33,971 bases of DNA from a virus, in IMG/VR virus record IMGVR_UViG_3300046697_000117, positions 1 to 33,971 of that record; one strand, written 5' to 3'. Below are positions 930 through 29,270 of the stretch, piece by piece. The notes beneath the pieces are model-generated. The model ran no database searches and had not been told where the DNA came from. It was given only the letters and a program-made list of their open reading frames with translations. Made by a program: the position numbers and the translations under genes. Each line of letters begins with the position of its first letter. Within the stretch, counting starts at the first letter, position 1.

Positions 930-2171
930 TCAAAACATCAACCCCATCTTGTTTCCATCCTTGATCGCTTTCAAAATCTCCTGAAAAGGCGTCATGTTGA
1001 CTTCTTTGTCGATGTACTTCATCCGTTCCGTGAGAGTCTTTATCTTCCCGATCACCTCCGGCACGCTGTTTCCTATGGCGATGAGGTCGAGGACGATGTC
1101 TTGCCCTCGTGGAGCCCAATACTGGTCCCCATACCGACATCCGCAATGGAGCTTTACCCATTGCTTGTCGCGCTCGTCGATCACGAGCCGGACCCAATTC
1201 GTCATCGCCGCCTGAGAGTACATCGGCAGGCACGCCACATATTTGCCTCTCACGTCGAGTTCAGCCTTCTCGCCGTTGGCGATCTTCCAAACGACTTCTG
1301 AAAAGTTCTTGACTGCCTCCGTATAGACGAGCCCCAGGGGGAGAGGGGAGCGCATCGTCATGTCGATGATGATCGATTTCTTCCGGCTCAGGATCCGCTC
1401 TTCGTCGGAAATGAGGCCGCGATAATCCATCTTCTTCAATAGAGGTGCGAGCTTCCGCATTGACGTGGCGATAGGCTCCGGCGGTTCCATTTCCCATTTT
1501 CCGATATAGGCGTGGCTGCATTCATACCCCCGGAGATAGGGGAAGAGAAAGCCGCCTGCCCCGTGGAAGGCATCAAAGCCGGTTTCGAGTTCGGCGCTGA
1601 TCGGCGCTTCTACGATAAATTTATACTCTTCCTTTTTTGGGCCGAGGTTGGTCGCCCATTCGTCAAGAAGGGTCTCGTGAGTATCGTAATCGAAAGTCCG
1701 GTAGCTCTCCCTATCGCCGCGGAAGACGTTGTGCTTCACAATATATCCCGGATGGTCCTTGAGATACTTTTTCAGGGCTTCCATGCCAATAACAACTTCA
1801 TAGTCCGGCGTGGGGAGTTTGAGTGCCTTCTGTATCTCCCGGAACTTGTCGCGGGACTCTTCCATTACGTCGGCCTTCGCATCCGAGCCGAAACAGGGAA
1901 TGCCCTGCCGCCGGTAATCGGTAATCTCGTCGCCAAAGCCCACGTCGAACGAGGCGATCATATCGACCTTGCGGGCTGTCTGCTTCGGCTTCGCTACCTT
2001 CTCAACCTTGCCTAAGCCTTCGCCATAAGAGAAATTCACGTACTTAGGGTCAATATCGTTGAAGGTGGTATGAAAGTACGTCGAGCCAAAGTCTTGAGAG
2101 AGCCGGGCGGCGAACTCCGCTTCCGCCCCCGTGCCGATGATAAGAATTTTCTTGGAAGAGAGGCCTGTCAT
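930..2171 (-). CDS. ATP-grasp (PurD-like) enzyme in the tail module
   Basis: A 413-residue protein. The N-terminus (SKKILIIGTGAEAEFAARL) is a Rossmann-like preATP-grasp domain. Near residues 140-165 KYLKDHPGYIVKHNVFRGD matches the lysine/glycine strand pair that binds ATP. Later come an acidic strand (EYKFIVEAPI) and IIIDMTMRSPLPLG, which lines up with the metal-binding D/E-x-N-x-R segment of ATP-grasp enzymes such as PurD. ATP-grasp enzymes join a carboxylate to an amine or thiol through an acyl-phosphate. The substrate here is unknown; modification of a virion or host peptide or metabolite is speculation. I chose the ATG at 2171 because GGGAGG lies 9 nt upstream; the longer ATG at 2198 lacks such a site. 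It sits between internal virion proteins and tail genes. Confidence 0.6.
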   Translation of the reverse strand: MTGLSSKKILIIGTGAEAEFAARLSQDFGSTYFHTTFNDIDPKYVNFSYGEGLGKVEKVAKPKQTARKVDMIASFDVGFGDEITDYRRQGIPCFGSDAKADVMEESRDKFREIQKALKLPTPDYEVVIGMEALKKYLKDHPGYIVKHNVFRGDRESYRTFDYDTHETLLDEWATNLGPKKEEYKFIVEAPISAELETGFDAFHGAGGFLFPYLRGYECSHAYIGKWEMEPPEPIATSMRKLAPLLKKMDYRGLISDEERILSRKKSIIIDMTMRSPLPLGLVYTEAVKNFSEVVWKIANGEKAELDVRGKYVACLPMYSQAAMTNWVRLVIDERDKQWVKLHCGCRYGDQYWAPRGQDIVLDLIAIGNSVPEVIGKIKTLTERMKYIDKEVNMTPFQEILKAIKDGNKMGLMF

Positions 2172-2172
2172 C

Positions 2173-2201
2173 TTGACAATCCTCCCGCGGGTGTGCATAG
2201 T
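2173..2201 (+). promoter_or_regulatory. Sigma70-like promoter for a plus-strand microgene
   Basis: TTGACA at 2173-2178, a 17-nt spacer and CATAGT at 2196-2201 (4 of 6 to TATAAT). It points away from the surrounding minus-strand operon, directly into the small ORF at 2219. The expected start of transcription (about 2208) leaves a very short leader that still contains most of the ribosome site. It lies within or upstream of the start of the ATP-grasp gene on the other strand. Confidence 0.4.
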
Positions 2202-2218
2202 AAAGGAAAGGAGGGATT

Positions 2219-2299
2219 ATGATTATTGCGCTTATCTTTCTGGTAGCAATCTTCGCCGTGGTTGTCCATTATGAAGAAAAGAGGCGAAACCGGTTTTAA
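2219..2299 (+). CDS. 26-residue single-membrane-span peptide, opposite to its neighbours
   Basis: The ORF encodes MIIALIFLVAIFAVVVHY followed by EEKRRNRF and a TAA stop. Residues 2-17 are a continuous hydrophobic span and the last eight are charged, so a type of small single-pass inner-membrane peptide is likely. AAAGGAGGG lies 4-5 nt upstream of the ATG, and a promoter-like pair lies just before it. It occupies the only gap between two minus-strand late genes (930-2171 and 2305-3822) and reads the other way. Small phage membrane peptides of this sort may be lysis, exclusion or regulatory factors; none of these can be assigned here. Confidence 0.45.
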   Translation: MIIALIFLVAIFAVVVHYEEKRRNRF

Positions 2300-2304
2300 C
2301 GTCT

Positions 2305-3822
2305 TCATCGGGACGCGTCCTTCATCGCCCGGTCCACGTTGGAAAACATCGCATTTATGTGCGTGTTTGGGTTGTTCTTCCATTTAATCCAGCTCTTTAC
2401 GGCATACATGGCCCCTGCTGCCGCCGCATTCGCGGGACTTAATGTAACCAATGCTTTTGCGGCTTCTGCGCCGGTCGCTATGTTGCTGATATCAAAAAAG
2501 CCTAGCGGCCTTTTTCTTGCATCCACAGCGTTTCTCTTGGCTACGTCGTCCTCTATGGCTTTCAGAGCGCCATACTTGTTTTTAAATTGTTGATACCCCG
2601 GCCCTTCTTCTGCTTCGATAGAGGCATCGAGCGTTTTTCTCATCTGATTCGCCACAATATTCTCTAGTGTTGCTTCTGATGCTGTTTCAAAGGTTGGGTT
2701 CCTATAAAACGCCTTTAACCTCTCGTTTGCTCGCGCTATTGCTCTTTGCGCCTGATCGACCGTGTAAACGCCCCTTTCTATCAATGAAGTTGCCGTTGCC
2801 TTGGCCTTTTTCACAAGTACAGATTCAAAATCCTGCATCACGGGGTCGTCTGCAAATGCCTGAAGCTCCTTGGCTGCCAGGGACAAGTCTATCGTGGCCC
2901 CTTTGTCTCCCGCCGCTTTTTTCATAGCATCGTAACGAGCAAAGACCGATCTCTTTGATTGATCTACCGCCTGCGAAAACTCATCAAGGGTCTTCGGAAC
3001 TTGTCCTATTTTCACGTTGCCTTTAGAATCCGTTAATTTCAGGTTGTCTTTATTCGAGACTATCTCTTTTACGGCCTCTGTCGCCCTGCTTAGATATTGT
3101 TCTGTTTGAACGCTGGTAAGCTGCTTAGCTACCGTGGGGGCAATACCTTTTTGCACTCCCTGTTTTACAGAATTTCTTATCTTCAATTCTGCTTGGACTT
3201 CAGATGGACGATAAGCTATCCCTTCGCTCGTTCTTTTCGCTATTTCCGGCATCGCCATCATTGTTACGTCTTCAGCCGCTTCTTCCGCGACGTACGCAGC
3301 ATTGGGGTAGCCTTTTACTCTAAGGTAAGAGCCTAATTTCTGAGACGGGACAAAAGGAAGACTGAGAGTATCGCCTATCATTTTAAGAGCGCGCTTGCCC
3401 GATTCTGTTCTAGGCTGATAGGTAAACATCTGAGATATAGTGTCTTTCAGGTTTTGTGCTTTAGTGCCCGAGTCTACTTCACCTGTTACAGAGCCATAGG
3501 CTCCGCGCACCGCTCCGGCTACTTTCCCCGCCGCTGCCGCAACAGTACCAGTCGCAAGCCCCGCCGCCACATCCATCGCATTGGACGGCGCTTCAAGAGC
3601 TTCATTCGCAGCTCGTCCTACGCCACCGGCTACCGCTCCGGCGATCTTCTGACCAGTCGTGCGGGTGTCGGGGGGGAGAGTAGCCGGCTGCTTCACCTTG
3701 CCCGGTAAATCTCCGTAGGCATCGGGATATTTAGCCGCGAGTTTGCCCGCAAGAGTGGCGTCGTCCATGTCACCATAGTCGGGGTATTTCTGCCTGAAAG
3801 TTTCAAGTTCCGACACTGGCAT
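2305..3822 (-). CDS. Putative internal virion / DNA ejection protein, 505 aa
   Basis: The N-terminus has two copies of a short motif (FRQKYPDYGDMDDATLAGKL and AKYPDAYGDL) that is common at the start of phage internal and tail-associated proteins. Residues about 55-115 are Ala/Gly-rich with amphipathic or membrane-active character (GAVAGGVGRAANEALEAPS, AAGLATGTVAAAAGKVAG). A long helical, charged middle follows, and the C-terminus has a hydrophobic Ala-rich helix. Its ATG overlaps the stop of the 480-residue gene (TAATG), so the two are translationally coupled. By position after the tail nozzle gene and by composition I infer an ejection protein like P22 gp7/gp16/gp20. No enzymatic motif is visible. 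Confidence 0.5.
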   Translation of the reverse strand: MPVSELETFRQKYPDYGDMDDATLAGKLAAKYPDAYGDLPGKVKQPATLPPDTRTTGQKIAGAVAGGVGRAANEALEAPSNAMDVAAGLATGTVAAAAGKVAGAVRGAYGSVTGEVDSGTKAQNLKDTISQMFTYQPRTESGKRALKMIGDTLSLPFVPSQKLGSYLRVKGYPNAAYVAEEAAEDVTMMAMPEIAKRTSEGIAYRPSEVQAELKIRNSVKQGVQKGIAPTVAKQLTSVQTEQYLSRATEAVKEIVSNKDNLKLTDSKGNVKIGQVPKTLDEFSQAVDQSKRSVFARYDAMKKAAGDKGATIDLSLAAKELQAFADDPVMQDFESVLVKKAKATATSLIERGVYTVDQAQRAIARANERLKAFYRNPTFETASEATLENIVANQMRKTLDASIEAEEGPGYQQFKNKYGALKAIEDDVAKRNAVDARKRPLGFFDISNIATGAEAAKALVTLSPANAAAAGAMYAVKSWIKWKNNPNTHINAMFSNVDRAMKDASR

Positions 3823-5264
3823 TATCGCAATCCCAACGGGTCTTTGGCGCTATTTGTTCCCCCGCCTAGCATGCCCTTTACTTCCTCGATCTGCTTATTG
3901 TATCCGGCCTTTCTGTTGCCCATTTCCTGCCGCAAGAGCTTTGTCACCGCTGTTACCTGTTCCGGCGTTTGCGCGCTGTTGAGCATGGATTCTACTTCTT
4001 TTCGGGCCGAATCGGAGGTAACCGAGCCGCCCGTTGCGGAAGATGTAACTTTGGCATACTCATTGATTGCGGTTCTCACGGCTGCATCAAACTTCGCCAC
4101 TTCTGGATCGCCGGCAAGACTGCGTTTTCCAGCAAGAAGCCACCTGTTGACTACCGGAACGCCTGTTCTACCGACCTGAGACGAAAGCTGGTCTACAAGG
4201 CTCAAGTTTTTCTCTGCGGTGTTCGCAAAAGACATGACTATGCCGCGTTGCTTCTGGATGGTGGTAAGTTCAGTCTGGGCGGCTTTAATCGTTGATTGCG
4301 ATAGCACGCGGGCTTCTACCGTTTGCCCTTCTGCGCTTGCCTGACGCGCCGCCTCGTTTATAATGGCTATTTTCCCTTTACCGCTCATCCCTGTTGCGGG
4401 AAGTTGACCGGTCATCCGGTATTTCTGAGCTTCCTGAGAGAGAGCTTCGGGGGTCAGCGTCGCGTCAGTTTTCGTCTGTTCTTTTTCTTTTGCCGCTCCC
4501 CTTATGTCTACGCCTACTTGAATCTTGTTTCTCGCCCTGCGCTCCATATCATCAAGGATAGCCTTGGCTTCCTTGTCTCCCTTCAATGCCTTTGCGGTAA
4601 GCTGCTCCTGGGTCTGATTCCCTTGTTCTTTCGGGTTCGTGTAGCTCGGTTGCGTCTGCCCTGGAGGGATATACGCCCCGCCGGAAGGCACTACCTCGCC
4701 TTTTTCCTCTTTCGGGGTAAGCTGTTTCCTCAATTGCTCGCGCTGCTCGTCCAAGGTCTTCATCTTGTCAGAGATGCCTTTCAGCGCCTTTTTGCTTTTA
4801 TCGTCGCCCTTCTCCTGTAGCTCTGCTGCCTGCTTCTTGAGGTTTTCTATCTGAGCCACCGTATCCTGGTAGAAGGCGCTGCCCATTTTTGTTTCGAGCG
4901 TCTTCTCGCTGCTGAACATCTTCATGACGTTCTGCGCGTCTTCGGTGCGGATAAACTTTTTTCCGGCAGGGTCGGACTGCATATACGGCATAGATGCCTG
5001 CTGCATAAGCGCATACGTGGCAGGGTGATCTTTAGCGAAGCCCTGAAAATCATCTTCATACATGGGCTTGTCTGCTCTTTCGGCCTTGGCCTTCGCCTGG
5101 GTTAATTGAAATTGAGAAAGCGCCTGCTGCGTCTTGGCCTGATCTTGCACCGCCTGATTGGCCTTAATTTGGTCAATGCCGCCTATCGCATCCATAGCAG
5201 TCTTTGTCGCATCCTGGATGCCTGCCGCCGCCCCGCCCCACGCGCCGCCGCTGTAATCAGGCAT
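3822..5264 (-). CDS. Putative internal virion protein, coiled-coil rich, 480 aa
   Basis: The start MPDYSGGAWGGAAAGIQDATK is a Gly/Ala-rich segment typical of phage ejection proteins. Residues 30-75 and about 130-195 are Gln/Lys/Glu-rich long helices with coiled-coil character (QALSQFQLTQAKAKAERAD, KKQAAELQEKGDDKSKKAL). A second helical block lies near the C-terminus and ends in a glycine-rich tail (MLGGGTNSAKDPLGLR). GGAGGTAAGCA precedes the ATG, which overlaps the end of the upstream 351-residue gene by 8 nt. Function is inferred from order in the late operon: adaptor, nozzle, then three internal proteins. No catalytic motif is seen. Confidence 0.5.
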   Translation of the reverse strand: MPDYSGGAWGGAAAGIQDATKTAMDAIGGIDQIKANQAVQDQAKTQQALSQFQLTQAKAKAERADKPMYEDDFQGFAKDHPATYALMQQASMPYMQSDPAGKKFIRTEDAQNVMKMFSSEKTLETKMGSAFYQDTVAQIENLKKQAAELQEKGDDKSKKALKGISDKMKTLDEQREQLRKQLTPKEEKGEVVPSGGAYIPPGQTQPSYTNPKEQGNQTQEQLTAKALKGDKEAKAILDDMERRARNKIQVGVDIRGAAKEKEQTKTDATLTPEALSQEAQKYRMTGQLPATGMSGKGKIAIINEAARQASAEGQTVEARVLSQSTIKAAQTELTTIQKQRGIVMSFANTAEKNLSLVDQLSSQVGRTGVPVVNRWLLAGKRSLAGDPEVAKFDAAVRTAINEYAKVTSSATGGSVTSDSARKEVESMLNSAQTPEQVTAVTKLLRQEMGNRKAGYNKQIEEVKGMLGGGTNSAKDPLGLR

Positions 5265-17550: not shown

Positions 17551-20133
17551 CTATCTCCTCGCCCCTGCGTTGAAATACCTCTTCCCTTGTCTGAGCGCGG
17601 GTTTGTCGGCCTCGTTCCTAAATCTCGCCATCGCCAGTTCGGGGCACTTTAAAAGACATTCAATGGTGATCGGAAAATGGCTGTACCGCTGTTCCCGTTC
17701 TCCGAGCTTGTTGCCCTTGGGGTCGTTCGAGACGAGCTTATCCCTGTCGCCCCATTCGGCCCATTTCCATTTTTTCATCGACTCAATGACGACAGGGCAG
17801 GCATTTGAGAACCATATCGTGGGCAGCAGAACCTTCTGGTTATTCTCCACGATCTCATTGTTGAACGGCCGGCCGACGCGCATGGAATTTGAAAGCCTCC
17901 CGCGAAAGTCCTCAAGCCCCTTCGATGATTTTGTGTCCCAAGGGGTCCAGTAGCCGCCCGAGCCGATGCCGTCGCGCTTCAATTGCGCAAAAGCCCGGTT
18001 GAGATCGTCTATGGTCGAAAGACCTGTATTGCCCTGCTTTTCGTTCGCATAAGGGTCGATCTTGCTCAAGACGTAATGATAATCCCCGCTCGTCTCCGCT
18101 ATGGCGCGGGCAATGTCGTGGGTGACCATCTTGTCGGGGTCGGGCTTTAATTCCGCCCACACGAATAGCTCGTTGAAGGGCGACAATGCAAGCCACACGC
18201 AGGCCCAGGGGTTTTTCGAGTGGTAATCGACGCCCCGGAAAAATTTATAGGAATGAGGCAGGCCATCAGGGAAAAAGTCACCAAGGCTGACGACATGGAC
18301 TTGAGAAGTAAAGTTCTTCATGACTTTACCGCTGATCTGCCGGAAAAGCCCCCATATGCGGGCGTCCTGCACGTCCTCGTCGGCATAATCGTTCTTGATC
18401 TTGTCAACCGTTGACTTGCTGAAGGTCGGGTTGTCATAAGTCGAAGCCATGATGACGGCGATATCGCTTTCCACGTCCGTTTTTTGGACGGTAGGGTATC
18501 GTTCTTTCTTTCCCGATCTTGCATAGATGCGCCGAAGCACCGAATGAGAGCGCATAATAACTTGCGCCCGGTCATAGATGTTGTCGAATATCCAGCCCGC
18601 TTGCGTCTCTGTCGGCGTATAGGTCAGAATAAGGTCGCCGCCGCGCTCCTGTTCCGCCGCAGCCAGTCGGGGGCGCTGTTCCTCGTAGAACTCGACAGAG
18701 GGGCCCTCGTCAATCCATATCGCTTTCCTCTGGACGCCCGCTTGAGCCTGCGTGCTCTGGCCGTAAGAAACATACTCGATGTAGATGTCTGGGCCGCCCT
18801 GCGGATCTCGCCATGTCTGCACGGGGTTCCTGATCGTCACGTCCTTCTTGAGATACTGTCGGGGGAAACGCCGCATGATCGCGGGGTAGGTGGAGCACTT
18901 TTTTTCTGCGTCGGACTTGTCTGTCGGGAGGACTTCGCCGCATATCCGATACGTCCTAATTCGATCTTCGGGATGAATATTTTTCCAGGCCACGGGATGG
19001 CGGCCCATGAATCTCCACCACCAATCCATTGCCACGCAATCGTTTTTTCCCGTGTTATGATTAATCAAACCACCCGCATAATAATTATGAAACAACGGTA
19101 CGGTTAGATCGTAGACATATTGACTTGAAACCGGTACGCATGATACAATCTGATTACAACTATTAGATATGGAGGGCACGAATGACGAAAATCGCTCACA
19201 ATAAGACGCCTGATCATGTGGTAAACGAGATTCGCCAATTGATTGAGGTTGATAAGATGACCCAAAAGCAAGTCGGACAGTCTCTTGGAATTCACGAGAC
19301 AACAGTCTACCACCTCTGTAAGATTCGTGGCATAAAAACGCAGAGAACGGGGCCTCGAAGTGGCCCAGGGCATCCCGACTGGAAAGGGGGGAGAACAAAA
19401 ATGAAGGGATACTGGCATGTATGGGTTGAAGACCACCCATATCCGAAAAAAGGAACCCACTACGTTGCTGAACACCGGCTTGTGATGGAAAAGAAGCTTG
19501 GGAGACATCTACTTCCATTCGAGGTTGTACATCACATCGACGGGGATAAAGAGAATAACTCCGAAGACAATCTAATTGTTTTTCAGACCAATGCAGCTCA
19601 CCTGAAAGAAGAATTGAAGGGTAGGGTTCCAAATTGGACGCCCGAAGGCAAAGAGAGGAGACGTAAATCGAATGAAGGGATAGCCAATCGCCGTCGTGGA
19701 AAAAAACCTTGTGATTGGTCGCGCCTTCAATCCAACGACCATCTGAAAAAGTAATCCTATAACACGGATATGGGCCTTTCTTCACGGGTGCAGAGGACCA
19801 TGTTTTTATTTTAGCCTCTCCATTCCATGCATAGAGAGATATTGACTTTCCTTGATCGTATAGCATCCCTATTTTTTGGGATCCTCCGGTTGTTTCTATT
19901 TCAGTATTGTAACTCAAGCATTGATTTCCAGTCGCAAGAAGAACGGTGCGGTAAGAAGCGGTGATAAGCCAGTTGAAGAGGATGGAGCTATATCGAAAGC
20001 ACGCTGGGTTTGGGTTGATCTCCTCATCCCAAGGAAGCCAGGTGATGTTCTCCTGTAGAAATTTCTCCGCAGCGGCCTTTTCGGCGTCGTTGGAGAATTT
20101 TAATTCTGAGAGAACGGACTTGAAGTCGATCAA
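17551..20133 (-). CDS. Terminase large subunit precursor interrupted by an intein
   Basis: TerL powers DNA packaging and cuts the concatemer. The 860-residue precursor consists of an N-extein (1-71), an intein (72-360) and a C-extein (361-860); splicing would give 571 residues, a normal TerL size. Exteins join as LLATGNQ|TGKNDC, restoring a Walker A-like loop (the last position is N instead of S/T). AIWIDEGPSVEF is the Walker B. FRGVDYHSKNP and LSKIDPYAN are acidic segments of the RNase H-like nuclease. I chose TTG 20133, which overlaps the upstream stop (TTGA) and gives a family-like MIDFKSVLSELKF start. ATG 20211 would add 26 residues inside the previous gene. An HNH gene lies antisense within the intein. 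Confidence 0.8.
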   Translation of the reverse strand: MIDFKSVLSELKFSNDAEKAAAEKFLQENITWLPWDEEINPNPACFRYSSILFNWLITASYRTVLLATGNQCLSYNTEIETTGGSQKIGMLYDQGKSISLYAWNGEAKIKTWSSAPVKKGPYPCYRITFSDGRWIEGATNHKVFFHDGDWLSLHSIYVSSLCLRASNLEPYPSILLSGELHWSEKQLDCLRSYSLYPRRCDVQPRMEVDVSQASFPSQAGVQQRSGFLFSDMGGLQPIHASIPSFLFSPLSSRDALGHFEAPFSAFLCHESYRGGRLLSREFQETVRLAFGSSYQPQSIGESRLPHDQASYCERFSSFVPSISNSCNQIVSCVPVSSQYVYDLTVPLFHNYYAGGLINHNTGKNDCVAMDWWWRFMGRHPVAWKNIHPEDRIRTYRICGEVLPTDKSDAEKKCSTYPAIMRRFPRQYLKKDVTIRNPVQTWRDPQGGPDIYIEYVSYGQSTQAQAGVQRKAIWIDEGPSVEFYEEQRPRLAAAEQERGGDLILTYTPTETQAGWIFDNIYDRAQVIMRSHSVLRRIYARSGKKERYPTVQKTDVESDIAVIMASTYDNPTFSKSTVDKIKNDYADEDVQDARIWGLFRQISGKVMKNFTSQVHVVSLGDFFPDGLPHSYKFFRGVDYHSKNPWACVWLALSPFNELFVWAELKPDPDKMVTHDIARAIAETSGDYHYVLSKIDPYANEKQGNTGLSTIDDLNRAFAQLKRDGIGSGGYWTPWDTKSSKGLEDFRGRLSNSMRVGRPFNNEIVENNQKVLLPTIWFSNACPVVIESMKKWKWAEWGDRDKLVSNDPKGNKLGEREQRYSHFPITIECLLKCPELAMARFRNEADKPALRQGKRYFNAGARR
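19120..19149 (+). promoter_or_regulatory. Promoter of the antisense HNH gene, inside intein block F DNA
   Basis: TTGACT at 19120-19125, an 18-nt spacer and TACAAT at 19144-19149: five of six matches to each sigma70 box. It reads into the HNH gene. GGAGGG at 19171-19176 is its ribosome site, 5 nt before the ATG. On the other strand the same bases encode part of intein block F (around QYVYDLTV). Confidence 0.6.
19182..19754 (+). CDS. HNH homing-type endonuclease nested antisense in the terL intein
   Basis: A 190-residue protein. Residues about 12-50 are a helix-turn-helix (MTQKQVGQSLGIHETTVYHL). GHPDWKGGR at 64-71 and the segment EHRLVMEKKLGRHLLPFEVV, HHIDGDKENNSEDNL (98-131) form the phage-type HNH motif with H117/H118, D120 and N130. 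The C-terminus is a basic tail (KERRRKSNEGIANRRRGKK). HNH nucleases of this class nick or cut DNA and drive mobility of introns, inteins or themselves. The gene lies wholly within the intein DNA, on the opposite strand, with its own promoter-like site and ribosome site. Its last ~15 codons lie opposite intein block B, so this stretch is coding on both strands. Confidence 0.85.
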   Translation: MTKIAHNKTPDHVVNEIRQLIEVDKMTQKQVGQSLGIHETTVYHLCKIRGIKTQRTGPRSGPGHPDWKGGRTKMKGYWHVWVEDHPYPKKGTHYVAEHRLVMEKKLGRHLLPFEVVHHIDGDKENNSEDNLIVFQTNAAHLKEELKGRVPNWTPEGKERRRKSNEGIANRRRGKKPCDWSRLQSNDHLKK

Positions 20134-20705
20134 AAATTTATTCCCACGTTCAGTAGAGGCGAACTTCCCGACACGGCGGCTATCCACGAAAACATCTTGA
20201 CGGAAGACCACCCGGCTATTGTCATGTTCGCGTTTGCCGGAAGCGCCTGTCCGAAGTTGGCCGGGGTTCCCGCGCTGTTTGTCGGAGCCACGCCGGACAC
20301 GGTAAACCTCATAGCATTTGTCTCACACGACACGGACACAGACTTTGCCGGGTTCATTGGGCATGTCTGAGGAAGACCCTGCATAGTGAAATAGGTGAAG
20401 GTATCGCCCGATGCGATGGTCCCAGAAACCTTGTTGAAGAAGATGACGCCCCGGGCCGTGCTGTCGCCAAGAGTGCCGGCCGTGACGACGACGGCGACAA
20501 TGGCAATTACCGCCCCGCTGCCCATGGCTATCGCTCGGGTATTGGCCGCAAGTCCGGTTGCGCCCCCGGTGAAGTTCATGAAGTTTCCGGTAGGCGGCTC
20601 TAAAAGGTTTCCGTCAAGCGTCATGGCGCTGTTTTGAAGGGTGTCGCTATACTGGACGTTGATTTCCCCTTCGCCGGCAGATTGAAAGACCAGAGTCGGC
20701 TGCAT
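20130..20705 (-). CDS. Putative virion protein, beta-rich, 191 aa
   Basis: The protein is Gly/Ala/Thr/Ser-rich with alternating hydrophobic strands (AMGSGAVIAIVAVVVTAGTL, ARGVIFFNKVSGTIASGDTF) and ends in SPLLNVGINF. This composition fits a capsid or tail decoration-type beta protein. The hydrophobic strand at about 62-80 could be mistaken for a membrane span. GGGAGAG precedes the ATG. Its stop TGA overlaps the TTG start chosen for terL. No family is recognised. Confidence 0.55.
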   Translation of the reverse strand: MQPTLVFQSAGEGEINVQYSDTLQNSAMTLDGNLLEPPTGNFMNFTGGATGLAANTRAIAMGSGAVIAIVAVVVTAGTLGDSTARGVIFFNKVSGTIASGDTFTYFTMQGLPQTCPMNPAKSVSVSCETNAMRFTVSGVAPTNSAGTPANFGQALPANANMTIAGWSSVKMFSWIAAVSGSSPLLNVGINF

Positions 20706-27834: not shown

Positions 27835-28024
27835 AATTGATCTCGCCGACCTTACTACACCTGAGCGGATCGCGGGTGCAATTATCCGCGAGATATCTGA
27901 TCTTCCAATCCCCGTCCCGTGGGCACGCACCCGTAGGGCGCGCGAACGCGGGCGGGTAGCGGGGGGGCGGTCGCCTTGTGGGCTTGGTAATAGACACATA
28001 TCTCAACGCGATTCTTTTTCTTGA
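27818..28024 (+). pseudogene. ImmA/IrrE-like N-terminal remnant
   Basis: GTG start with AAAGGAGAAAC upstream. The first 33 residues, IDLADLTTPERIAGAIIREI, then SDLPIPVPWA, fit the beginning of ImmA/IrrE metallopeptidase genes that follow Xre repressors. After that the frame turns Arg/Gly-rich and stops, with no HExxH. The break coincides with a GC-rich stretch (27925-27975) right before the methyltransferase promoter. I infer that the protease gene was lost when the methyltransferase segment came in. Alternatively it is a short peptide that still acts with the repressor. Confidence 0.5.
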
Positions 28025-28050
28025 CAGCCACTGGGAAATACTGATATCGT
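28021..28050 (+). promoter_or_regulatory. Promoter of the methyltransferase gene
   Basis: TTGACA at 28021-28026, an 18-nt spacer and TATCGT at 28045-28050 (4 of 6). It stands just before the methyltransferase start region and within the 3' part of the remnant, suggesting that the methyltransferase unit is independently transcribed. Confidence 0.5.
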
Positions 28051-28091
28051 GTGATAGCAAAATGTCCCCCCGGCGAAATGGAAGGGTTTTA

Positions 28092-29270
28092 ATGACTTCG
28101 ATGCTTATACGCGATATCTCGGGAAAGTTACGCTCATGGATCAGCGAAGAATGCGACCGTCTGAAGGTTTCACGGCAGGAATTTCTTCTCTCGCTGCTCA
28201 CGAAGGCATGCGACGTGGACGAAAGGCTTCCACTTTTTGAGGGCGCTCCGGCACAACCGGATAGAGCACAACAGGGGGCCGGACGTTCTTTACCGTTCAG
28301 CTTTGTAGACCTGTTCGCAGGTATCGGGGGACTCAGGCTCGGGTTGGAGGCGGTTGGCGGACGCTGTCTGTTTTCTTCTGAATGGGACCGCTATTCTCAG
28401 AAGACGTACAATGCTTGGTTCAATGAGGTCCCAAAGGGAGATATCACCAAGATCGAACCTTCGGAGATTCCGGACCACGACGTGCTTGCGGCAGGGTTTC
28501 CATGCCAGCCGTTCTCAATCGCGGGGGTCTCGAAAAAGAATGCGTTGGGACTTCCCCATGGATTCAAAGACGTCACGCAGGGAAATCTGTTCTTCACGCT
28601 TGCCGCCATTATCCGGATCAAACGGCCAGCGGTCATCATGCTTGAAAATGTGAAGAATCTACAGTCTCATGACCAGGGGCGGACTTGGGAAGTGATCCGC
28701 ACCACGTTGGAGGAAATGAAGTATCGGATTTTCACTAAAGTGATCGATGCGGCGGCATGGGTACCACAGCATAGGGAACGGGTAATCATTGTTGGTTTTG
28801 ACAGCTTTCTTTTCGGGTGTGATCCGCCTTTCAATTTCCCGAAGGAGCCTGAAAAGCGTTGCTCGAAGTTCAGAGATATTCTGGAATCGTACCCCGATGA
28901 AAGATACACGCTGAGCGATCATTTGTGGGGCTATCTAAAGGAGTACGCACAGCGCCATAAGGAGAAGGGAAACGGCTTCGGCTACGGAATGGTTGATCTG
29001 GACGGGGTAAGCCGCACTCTTTCGGCTAGATATTTCAAGGACGGATCGGAAATTCTCATTCCTCAAGGCAACAAGAACCCTCGGAGACTGACGCCGCGGG
29101 AAGCTGCGCGTCTGATGGGTTTTCCTGACAGGTTGCCGATTGTGGTGTCCGACACGCAGGCGTATCGTCAGTTCGGCAATGCAGTGGTGCCCCCGGTTGT
29201 GGAAGCGGTAGCCAAGCAAGTCGTAAAGGTTTTAGAGTGGCATTTCAAAACGAACATGGGGGAATTATGA
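28092..29270 (+). CDS. DNA (cytosine-5) methyltransferase with N-terminal RHH domain
   Basis: Transfers a methyl group from AdoMet to cytosine C5. In the 392-residue protein: motif I DLFAGIGG (73-80), motif IV PCQPF with catalytic Cys about 138, motif VI ENV (185-187), motif VIII QHRER (226-230), motif X QFGNAVVPPVVEAV near the C-terminus. The target-recognition region is short, with KGNGFGYGMVDLDGVSRTLS. Residues 1-40 (MTSMLIRDISGKLRSWISEE, then CDRLKVSRQEFLLSLL) look like a ribbon-helix-helix. I chose ATG 28092 because GGAAGGG lies 5-6 nt upstream; ATG 28062 is another candidate. No cognate restriction gene is adjacent, so it is probably an orphan used for anti-restriction. Confidence 0.85.
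   Translation: MTSMLIRDISGKLRSWISEECDRLKVSRQEFLLSLLTKACDVDERLPLFEGAPAQPDRAQQGAGRSLPFSFVDLFAGIGGLRLGLEAVGGRCLFSSEWDRYSQKTYNAWFNEVPKGDITKIEPSEIPDHDVLAAGFPCQPFSIAGVSKKNALGLPHGFKDVTQGNLFFTLAAIIRIKRPAVIMLENVKNLQSHDQGRTWEVIRTTLEEMKYRIFTKVIDAAAWVPQHRERVIIVGFDSFLFGCDPPFNFPKEPEKRCSKFRDILESYPDERYTLSDHLWGYLKEYAQRHKEKGNGFGYGMVDLDGVSRTLSARYFKDGSEILIPQGNKNPRRLTPREAARLMGFPDRLPIVVSDTQAYRQFGNAVVPPVVEAVAKQVVKVLEWHFKTNMGEL

Follow-up and report, generated by a model that had tools for sequence, protein, structure and literature searches.

The terL (large terminase) gene in the window, as we call the whole 33,971-nucleotide stretch of IMG/VR virus record IMGVR_UViG_3300046697_000117 analysed here, carries a predicted intein whose DNA encloses an HNH endonuclease gene on the opposite strand. 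We consider it very likely that the two form a composite selfish element, a mobile TerL intein whose homing nuclease is the separately expressed antisense HNH protein. A search of databases for antisense HNH ORFs in TerL inteins, a check proposed in the initial annotation of this DNA, recovered the same arrangement in the same phase at no fewer than 89 non-redundant loci. With less assurance, we think it probable that these loci represent a widespread and previously undescribed class of mobile inteins, residing in phage P-loop NTPases, whose antisense nuclease has its own promoter within the C-terminal splicing codons, both strands being under selection. The features of the terL frame are the following.

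17551-20211, minus strand: terL open frame with the intein, stop codon included; the start is uncertain (GTG at 20211 or one nearer 20130)
19921-20211, minus strand: N-extein, ending ...ATGNQ, the first half of Walker A
17554-19053, minus strand: C-extein, beginning TGKND, the remainder of Walker A
19054-19920, minus strand: predicted intein of 289 aa, with C1, block-B H70, C-terminal H288 and N289, and a +1 Thr
19636-19920, minus strand: N-terminal splicing region, residues 1-95, predicted folded (pLDDT mostly >90)
19150-19635, minus strand: intein middle, residues 96-257, mostly predicted disordered (pLDDT ~40-60), antisense of most of the HNH gene
19054-19149, minus strand: C-terminal splicing region, residues 258-289, placed by intein-model match and AlphaFold

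The junctions read ATGNQ/CLSYNTEIET...GGLINHN/TGKND (slashes mark the ends of the insert), so that Walker A is split, and terL runs through the insert in a single uninterrupted frame of 886 codons counted from the GTG at 20211. The insert passes the NCBIfam models intein_Nterm (31.3 bits, cut-off 24.5) and intein_Cterm (15.8-16.7 bits, cut-off 15.6); it scores 32 against Pfam Intein_splicing, under the cut-off of 35.8 (E=1.3e-7). AlphaFold models residues 1-95 and 258-289 with pLDDT mostly >90 and the middle at ~40-60, and Foldseek matches the model to NpuDnaE and other inteins with probability 1.0, as a Hint fold. Neither profile matches nor the AlphaFold model revealed an endonuclease domain in the intein's own frame, where the middle is predicted to be disordered; the HNH lies on the other strand only. 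By every feature tested the insert is a putative intein, but not one of the classical kind with a homing endonuclease in frame. The initial annotation had placed complete splicing motifs at exactly these coordinates and had seen no endonuclease domain in this frame; its 289-residue intein and its ATGNQ/TGKND site agree with the translation. The 571 residues that it gave for the spliced TerL are possible, since the length depends on the start: the GTG at 20211 gives 597 aa, and a start nearer 20130, where the overlapping upstream ORF ends, gives somewhat fewer. The PHROG terminase match of terL falls mainly on the C-terminal end of the intein, and relatives of the window TerL were found by means of the C-extein. 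GC content is 44% in the intein and 47% in the HNH gene, nearer to the N-extein (49%) than to the C-extein (55%). An assembly artefact was rejected because the locus recurs in two further IMG/VR contigs at 100% and 99.84% identity; the three contigs agree.

On the opposite strand, the nuclease gene and its expression signals are arranged as follows.

19182-19754, plus strand: HNH endonuclease gene, 190 aa, N-terminal helix-turn-helix (HTH) and HNH_3; codon position 1 faces intein codon position 1
19473-19601, plus strand: HNH catalytic core H98...H118...N126/N130...H140, invariant in at least 89 non-redundant loci
19120-19149, plus strand: sigma-70-like promoter TTGACT-18-TACAAT, 10/12 matches with a TG before the -10, inside the C-terminal splicing region of the intein
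19171-19175, plus strand: Shine-Dalgarno GGAGG, 6 nt upstream of the HNH ATG

The HNH gene lies wholly within the intein DNA, as had been reported from the sequence, and its product matches Pfam HNH_3 (32.8 bits, cut-off 24.8) and PHROG HNH families (best E=4.5e-21). The core residues of HNH homing endonucleases are present in it and in its relatives. Its AlphaFold model is confident (87.9), with an N-terminal HTH; Foldseek against the PDB returned no significant match, that to I-HmuI (1u3e) being weak and below significance. Like I-HmuI-like HNH homing endonucleases (Pfam HNH_3, PF13392), the protein joins an HNH core to a helix-turn-helix DNA-binding domain, but its HTH is N-terminal and its fold match to 1u3e only weak. 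When the window HNH was recoded synonymously with TerL codon usage, 6.98 stops were expected in the antisense frame and none is seen (P=0.0003). A chance ORF was rejected on the HNH profile matches, this simulation and the conservation of the family.

The element may be pictured to work as follows. TerL would be translated whole, as one frame, through the antisense of the HNH gene, and a Hint fold built from intein residues 1-95 and 258-289 would excise itself; the ~160 residues between, mostly antisense of the HNH gene, would serve as a passive, disordered linker where ordinary inteins hold their nuclease domain. The HNH would be expressed from the opposite strand, probably early, by means of the Shine-Dalgarno sequence and a host-type promoter lying in the C-terminal splicing codons. 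In co-infecting phages or prophages that lack the intein, the HNH would cleave the P-loop sequence at the insertion site, and repair would then copy the entire composite, completing homing.

Relatives were sought from three kinds of query: the HNH, the intein and TerL. The collection searches were pattern-seeded, so that all locus totals are lower bounds and the numbers of loci should not be read as prevalences. A search of phage collections with the window intein gave no matches, and its relatives surfaced via the HNH only: tblastn led to Pectobacterium phage Ymer, Dickeya phage Setonix and Pseudoalteromonas phage PHS3, each with an HNH ORF antisense inside the TerL frame, intein motifs and the same P-loop site. 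HNH-seeded profile searches yielded at least 60 loci in which both ends of the intein could be placed; a redundancy threshold of 90% HNH identity leaves 44 of these. In the intein-seeded search a nested HNH in the same phase was present in 80/80 loci among the matches listed. The two surveys pooled comprise at least 140 loci, at least 89 non-redundant. In a third intein subgroup of at least 79 loci, 60 have a strong nested HNH profile match; the rest consist of two HNH remnants, 13 HNH-less mini-inteins (130-142 aa) plus L314, and three partial matches. The TerL-only search added one locus with the arrangement, L017. The antisense phase is identical in every intact locus, and the HNH start codon usually lies 113-149 nt from the C-terminal end of the intein. 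Carriers include isolated Pectobacterium, Dickeya and Pseudoalteromonas phages and Enterobacter, Acinetobacter and E. coli chromosomes. At four loci (L054, L055, L056 and L092) the HNH has ~305 codons and starts 65 nt from the intein C-end, overlapping the C-terminal splicing block too.

The host gene is mostly TerL, of the Terminase_6N and Terminase_3 families, with insertion before [ST]GK; at L026 and L028-L032 the insertion is after GK instead. The element also occupies a SNF2-type helicase (L052), a strawberry-notch-type helicase (L307/L308) and an AAA_33/zeta-like kinase (L309), likewise in or adjoining the P-loop. Some variant loci were also noted. At L088 an antisense HNH (2914-3726, plus strand) lies in a TerL gene (1766-4306, minus strand) whose intein ends in Gln, not Asn, and apparently sits near Walker B (VNAQ/SWIGFDE). 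One TerL ORF (L305:2701-5991) apparently holds two inteins, the first with an antisense HNH and the second, downstream, with no HNH profile match. In a second, sense-strand form of uncoupled nuclease, intein-like stretches of a DNA polymerase (L010:4683-5228, plus strand) and of TerL (L011:2507-3070 and L012:4851-5414, both plus strand) contain HNH ORFs on the same strand but in another frame.

Empty, mini and full states of the insertion site were all found. The element is present in Enterobacter cloacae DSM 26481 and E. coli MEI003, and E. coli ET729 has an uninterrupted GFG/SGKT between flanks that share ~84% identity with those of Enterobacter. Of 781 E. coli genomes with a match to the query region, only one covers the intein. 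Intein-free relatives of the window TerL read GNQGGKT (L015) and GNQAGKS (L018), and two closely similar TerLs differ in that one has a mini-intein (L314) and the other a full composite (L315). Distances between HNHs correlate with those between splicing blocks (rho 0.84), and either correlates less with TerL (0.50); in 124 pairs the splicing blocks are >=55% identical and the TerLs <30%. Thus the element has the sporadic distribution, empty sites and lateral spread of a homing endonuclease. Since HNH-less mini-inteins exist, the HNH can be lost with splicing motifs intact, and the empty-site TerL genes, mini-inteins and remnants suggest a homing cycle.

These distributions bear on the possibility that the HNH is a TerL packaging co-factor parked in the intein rather than a homing nuclease. 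The gene does lie in terL, and in other phages HNH proteins near TerL can have a role in packaging; those beside TerL in cos phages were reportedly characterized as packaging components by Kala and co-workers in 2014. The HNH nevertheless accompanies the intein and is absent from the HNH-less mini-inteins, no HNH is annotated within ~5.5 kb around terL of the intein-free E. coli ET729, and the same inteins occur with the HNH in SNF2, strawberry-notch-type helicase and AAA_33/zeta-like kinase genes, which have no packaging role. We therefore judge a packaging function very improbable, and a homing nuclease remains our preferred reading.

Selection was measured in relatives, because the window alleles are near-identical. 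In the shared antisense phase, third bases of HNH codons stand opposite second bases of intein codons, and vice versa. Synonymous recoding of the HNHs of 44 loci with TerL codon usage predicted 286 stops in the intein frame, where none is seen; the other two antisense phases of these loci hold 379 and 428 stops, and the equivalent phase is interrupted by one or more stops in each of the 28 other HNH relatives examined. Differences at HNH codon positions 1/2/3 number 193/145/506 opposite the linker and 67/86/79 opposite the N-terminal splicing block (Fisher P=4e-13, from nine chosen pairs that are not formally independent). Constraint therefore falls on the HNH where the intein forms a loop, and on the intein where only the tail of the HNH lies opposite; the substitutions show selection on the HNH opposite the linker predicted to be disordered, and a balance of constraint between the two frames at the splicing block.

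The window promoter is the only promoter-like site found in 2.66 kb, and its score was equalled by 0/100 synonymous recodings. Promoters with >=10/12 matches lie between the intein C-end and the HNH start in 28/89 loci, four of which have a perfect TTGACA/TATAAT; 100 synonymous recodings of the intein gave such promoters in 4.2 loci on average and in at most nine. Synonymous recoding replaced dinucleotide shuffles as the null, because conserved intein codons (I-I/I-L) can mimic a -10 box, and the signal persisted. Putative sigma-70-like HNH promoters in the C-terminal splicing sequence are thus commoner than intein coding explains. Shine-Dalgarno sequences are also enriched upstream of the HNHs, but this count is inflated, and is weaker evidence, because HNH starts were picked partly by their presence. 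The HNH is transcribed in the direction opposed to the late genes, which together with the host-type promoter points to early expression. The initial annotation proposed a nuclease decoupled from the splicing frame and separately expressed; at the level of sequence this is well supported by the promoter, the Shine-Dalgarno sequence, selection and the HNH-less mini-inteins.

Slightly less probable than a packaging role is the notion that the HNH is an untranslated relic that once fell into a mini-intein, so that the intein frame alone matters. That the gene can decay is seen from its remnants in two loci and its absence from at least 14, yet opposite the linker its third positions vary 3.5x more than its second, a sign of selection on the HNH protein; its catalytic residues are kept in 89/89 loci and promoters are enriched. 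For the family, this reading is already contradicted. The conserved residues (H98, H118, N126, N130 and H140) were read from alignment columns, as a strict HNH regular expression missed 34 loci and another matched none.

On the intein side, block-B His and the terminal HN are invariant across the at least 89 non-redundant loci, C1 is present in all save one, which is clipped by a contig end, and every resolved junction has S, T or C at +1. Least probable of all is a non-splicing insert, with which TerL works or through which it became a pseudogene, as the PGAP call of an incomplete terL in E. coli MEI003 and the supposed retention of the ShiLan insertion in its protein (PMC11855218) might suggest, for these invariant residues and the probability-1.0 fold matches to solved inteins speak against it, as does the splitting of Walker A, which TerL needs.

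A mobile intein with an antisense nuclease departs in several ways from known elements. Like mobile inteins with in-frame LAGLIDADG or HNH nucleases, it has a Hint domain with C1, block-B His and HN+S/T, inserts at a conserved active site, holds nuclease-coding DNA between blocks B and F, and exists in full, mini and empty states. Unlike them, it has no endonuclease domain fused in the intein frame; the nuclease is outside the intein polypeptide, encoded on the opposite strand by a gene of its own that has a separate promoter and Shine-Dalgarno sequence. Fractured genes and split inteins with a free-standing endonuclease, in which host gene and intein are broken into two genes, were reportedly described by Dassa and co-workers in 2009. 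There, too, the nuclease gene is separate from the splicing polypeptide, but the TerL frame is single and continuous through the antisense of the nuclease and is not divided between two ORFs. Group I introns can contain a homing endonuclease gene, in some rDNA introns on the opposite strand. They likewise hold a nuclease gene with its own expression signals within a self-splicing element, but an intron insert need not be translated, whereas the TerL intein requires both strands to be coding.

The closest published analogue that we found is the ShiLan domain, in which an HNH is hidden out of frame, on the same strand, in a phage methylase insertion without splicing motifs (PMC11855218). Both elements have an HNH in an alternative frame of an insertion, keep the host frame open and show a homing-like distribution (PMC11855218). 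Unlike ShiLan, whose HNH lies in a same-strand insertion with no splicing domain and no detectable ribosome-binding site, the TerL HNH is in antisense phase, inside a proper intein with intein motifs, and has a promoter and Shine-Dalgarno sequence. An antisense intein nuclease was not found in the literature searched, a scope that excludes an actinobacteriophage preprint on inteins of "non-canonical architecture" (10.1101/2025.01.02.630785); the initial annotation had likewise taken it as the strongest candidate for something new, and we provisionally regard the antisense-nuclease intein as novel.

The antisense nuclease would break the rule that an intein's mobility enzyme belongs to the spliced protein, and its expression could therefore be controlled independently of the host gene. 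With ~500-900 bp of antisense overlap, evidence of selection on both strands, one phase and at least 89 divergent loci, the family offers a test system for the evolution of overlapping genes, and it may yield new small inteins with tolerant linkers and new P-loop-targeting nucleases. The nested gene also explains recurrent misannotation in public records. In E. coli MEI003 (L155:3739-5043), PGAP called the HNH and marked the intein-bearing terL as incomplete and pseudo, apparently because it had called the antisense gene, and prophages annotated in this way may be wrongly scored as defective. In the record of phage PHS3 terL is truncated, and in that of Ymer it is "hypothetical" and the HNH is missed. 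Elsewhere in the window, a C-5 cytosine DNA methyltransferase gene (27978-29270, plus strand; Pfam E=6.5e-84) lies on the strand opposite the head genes.
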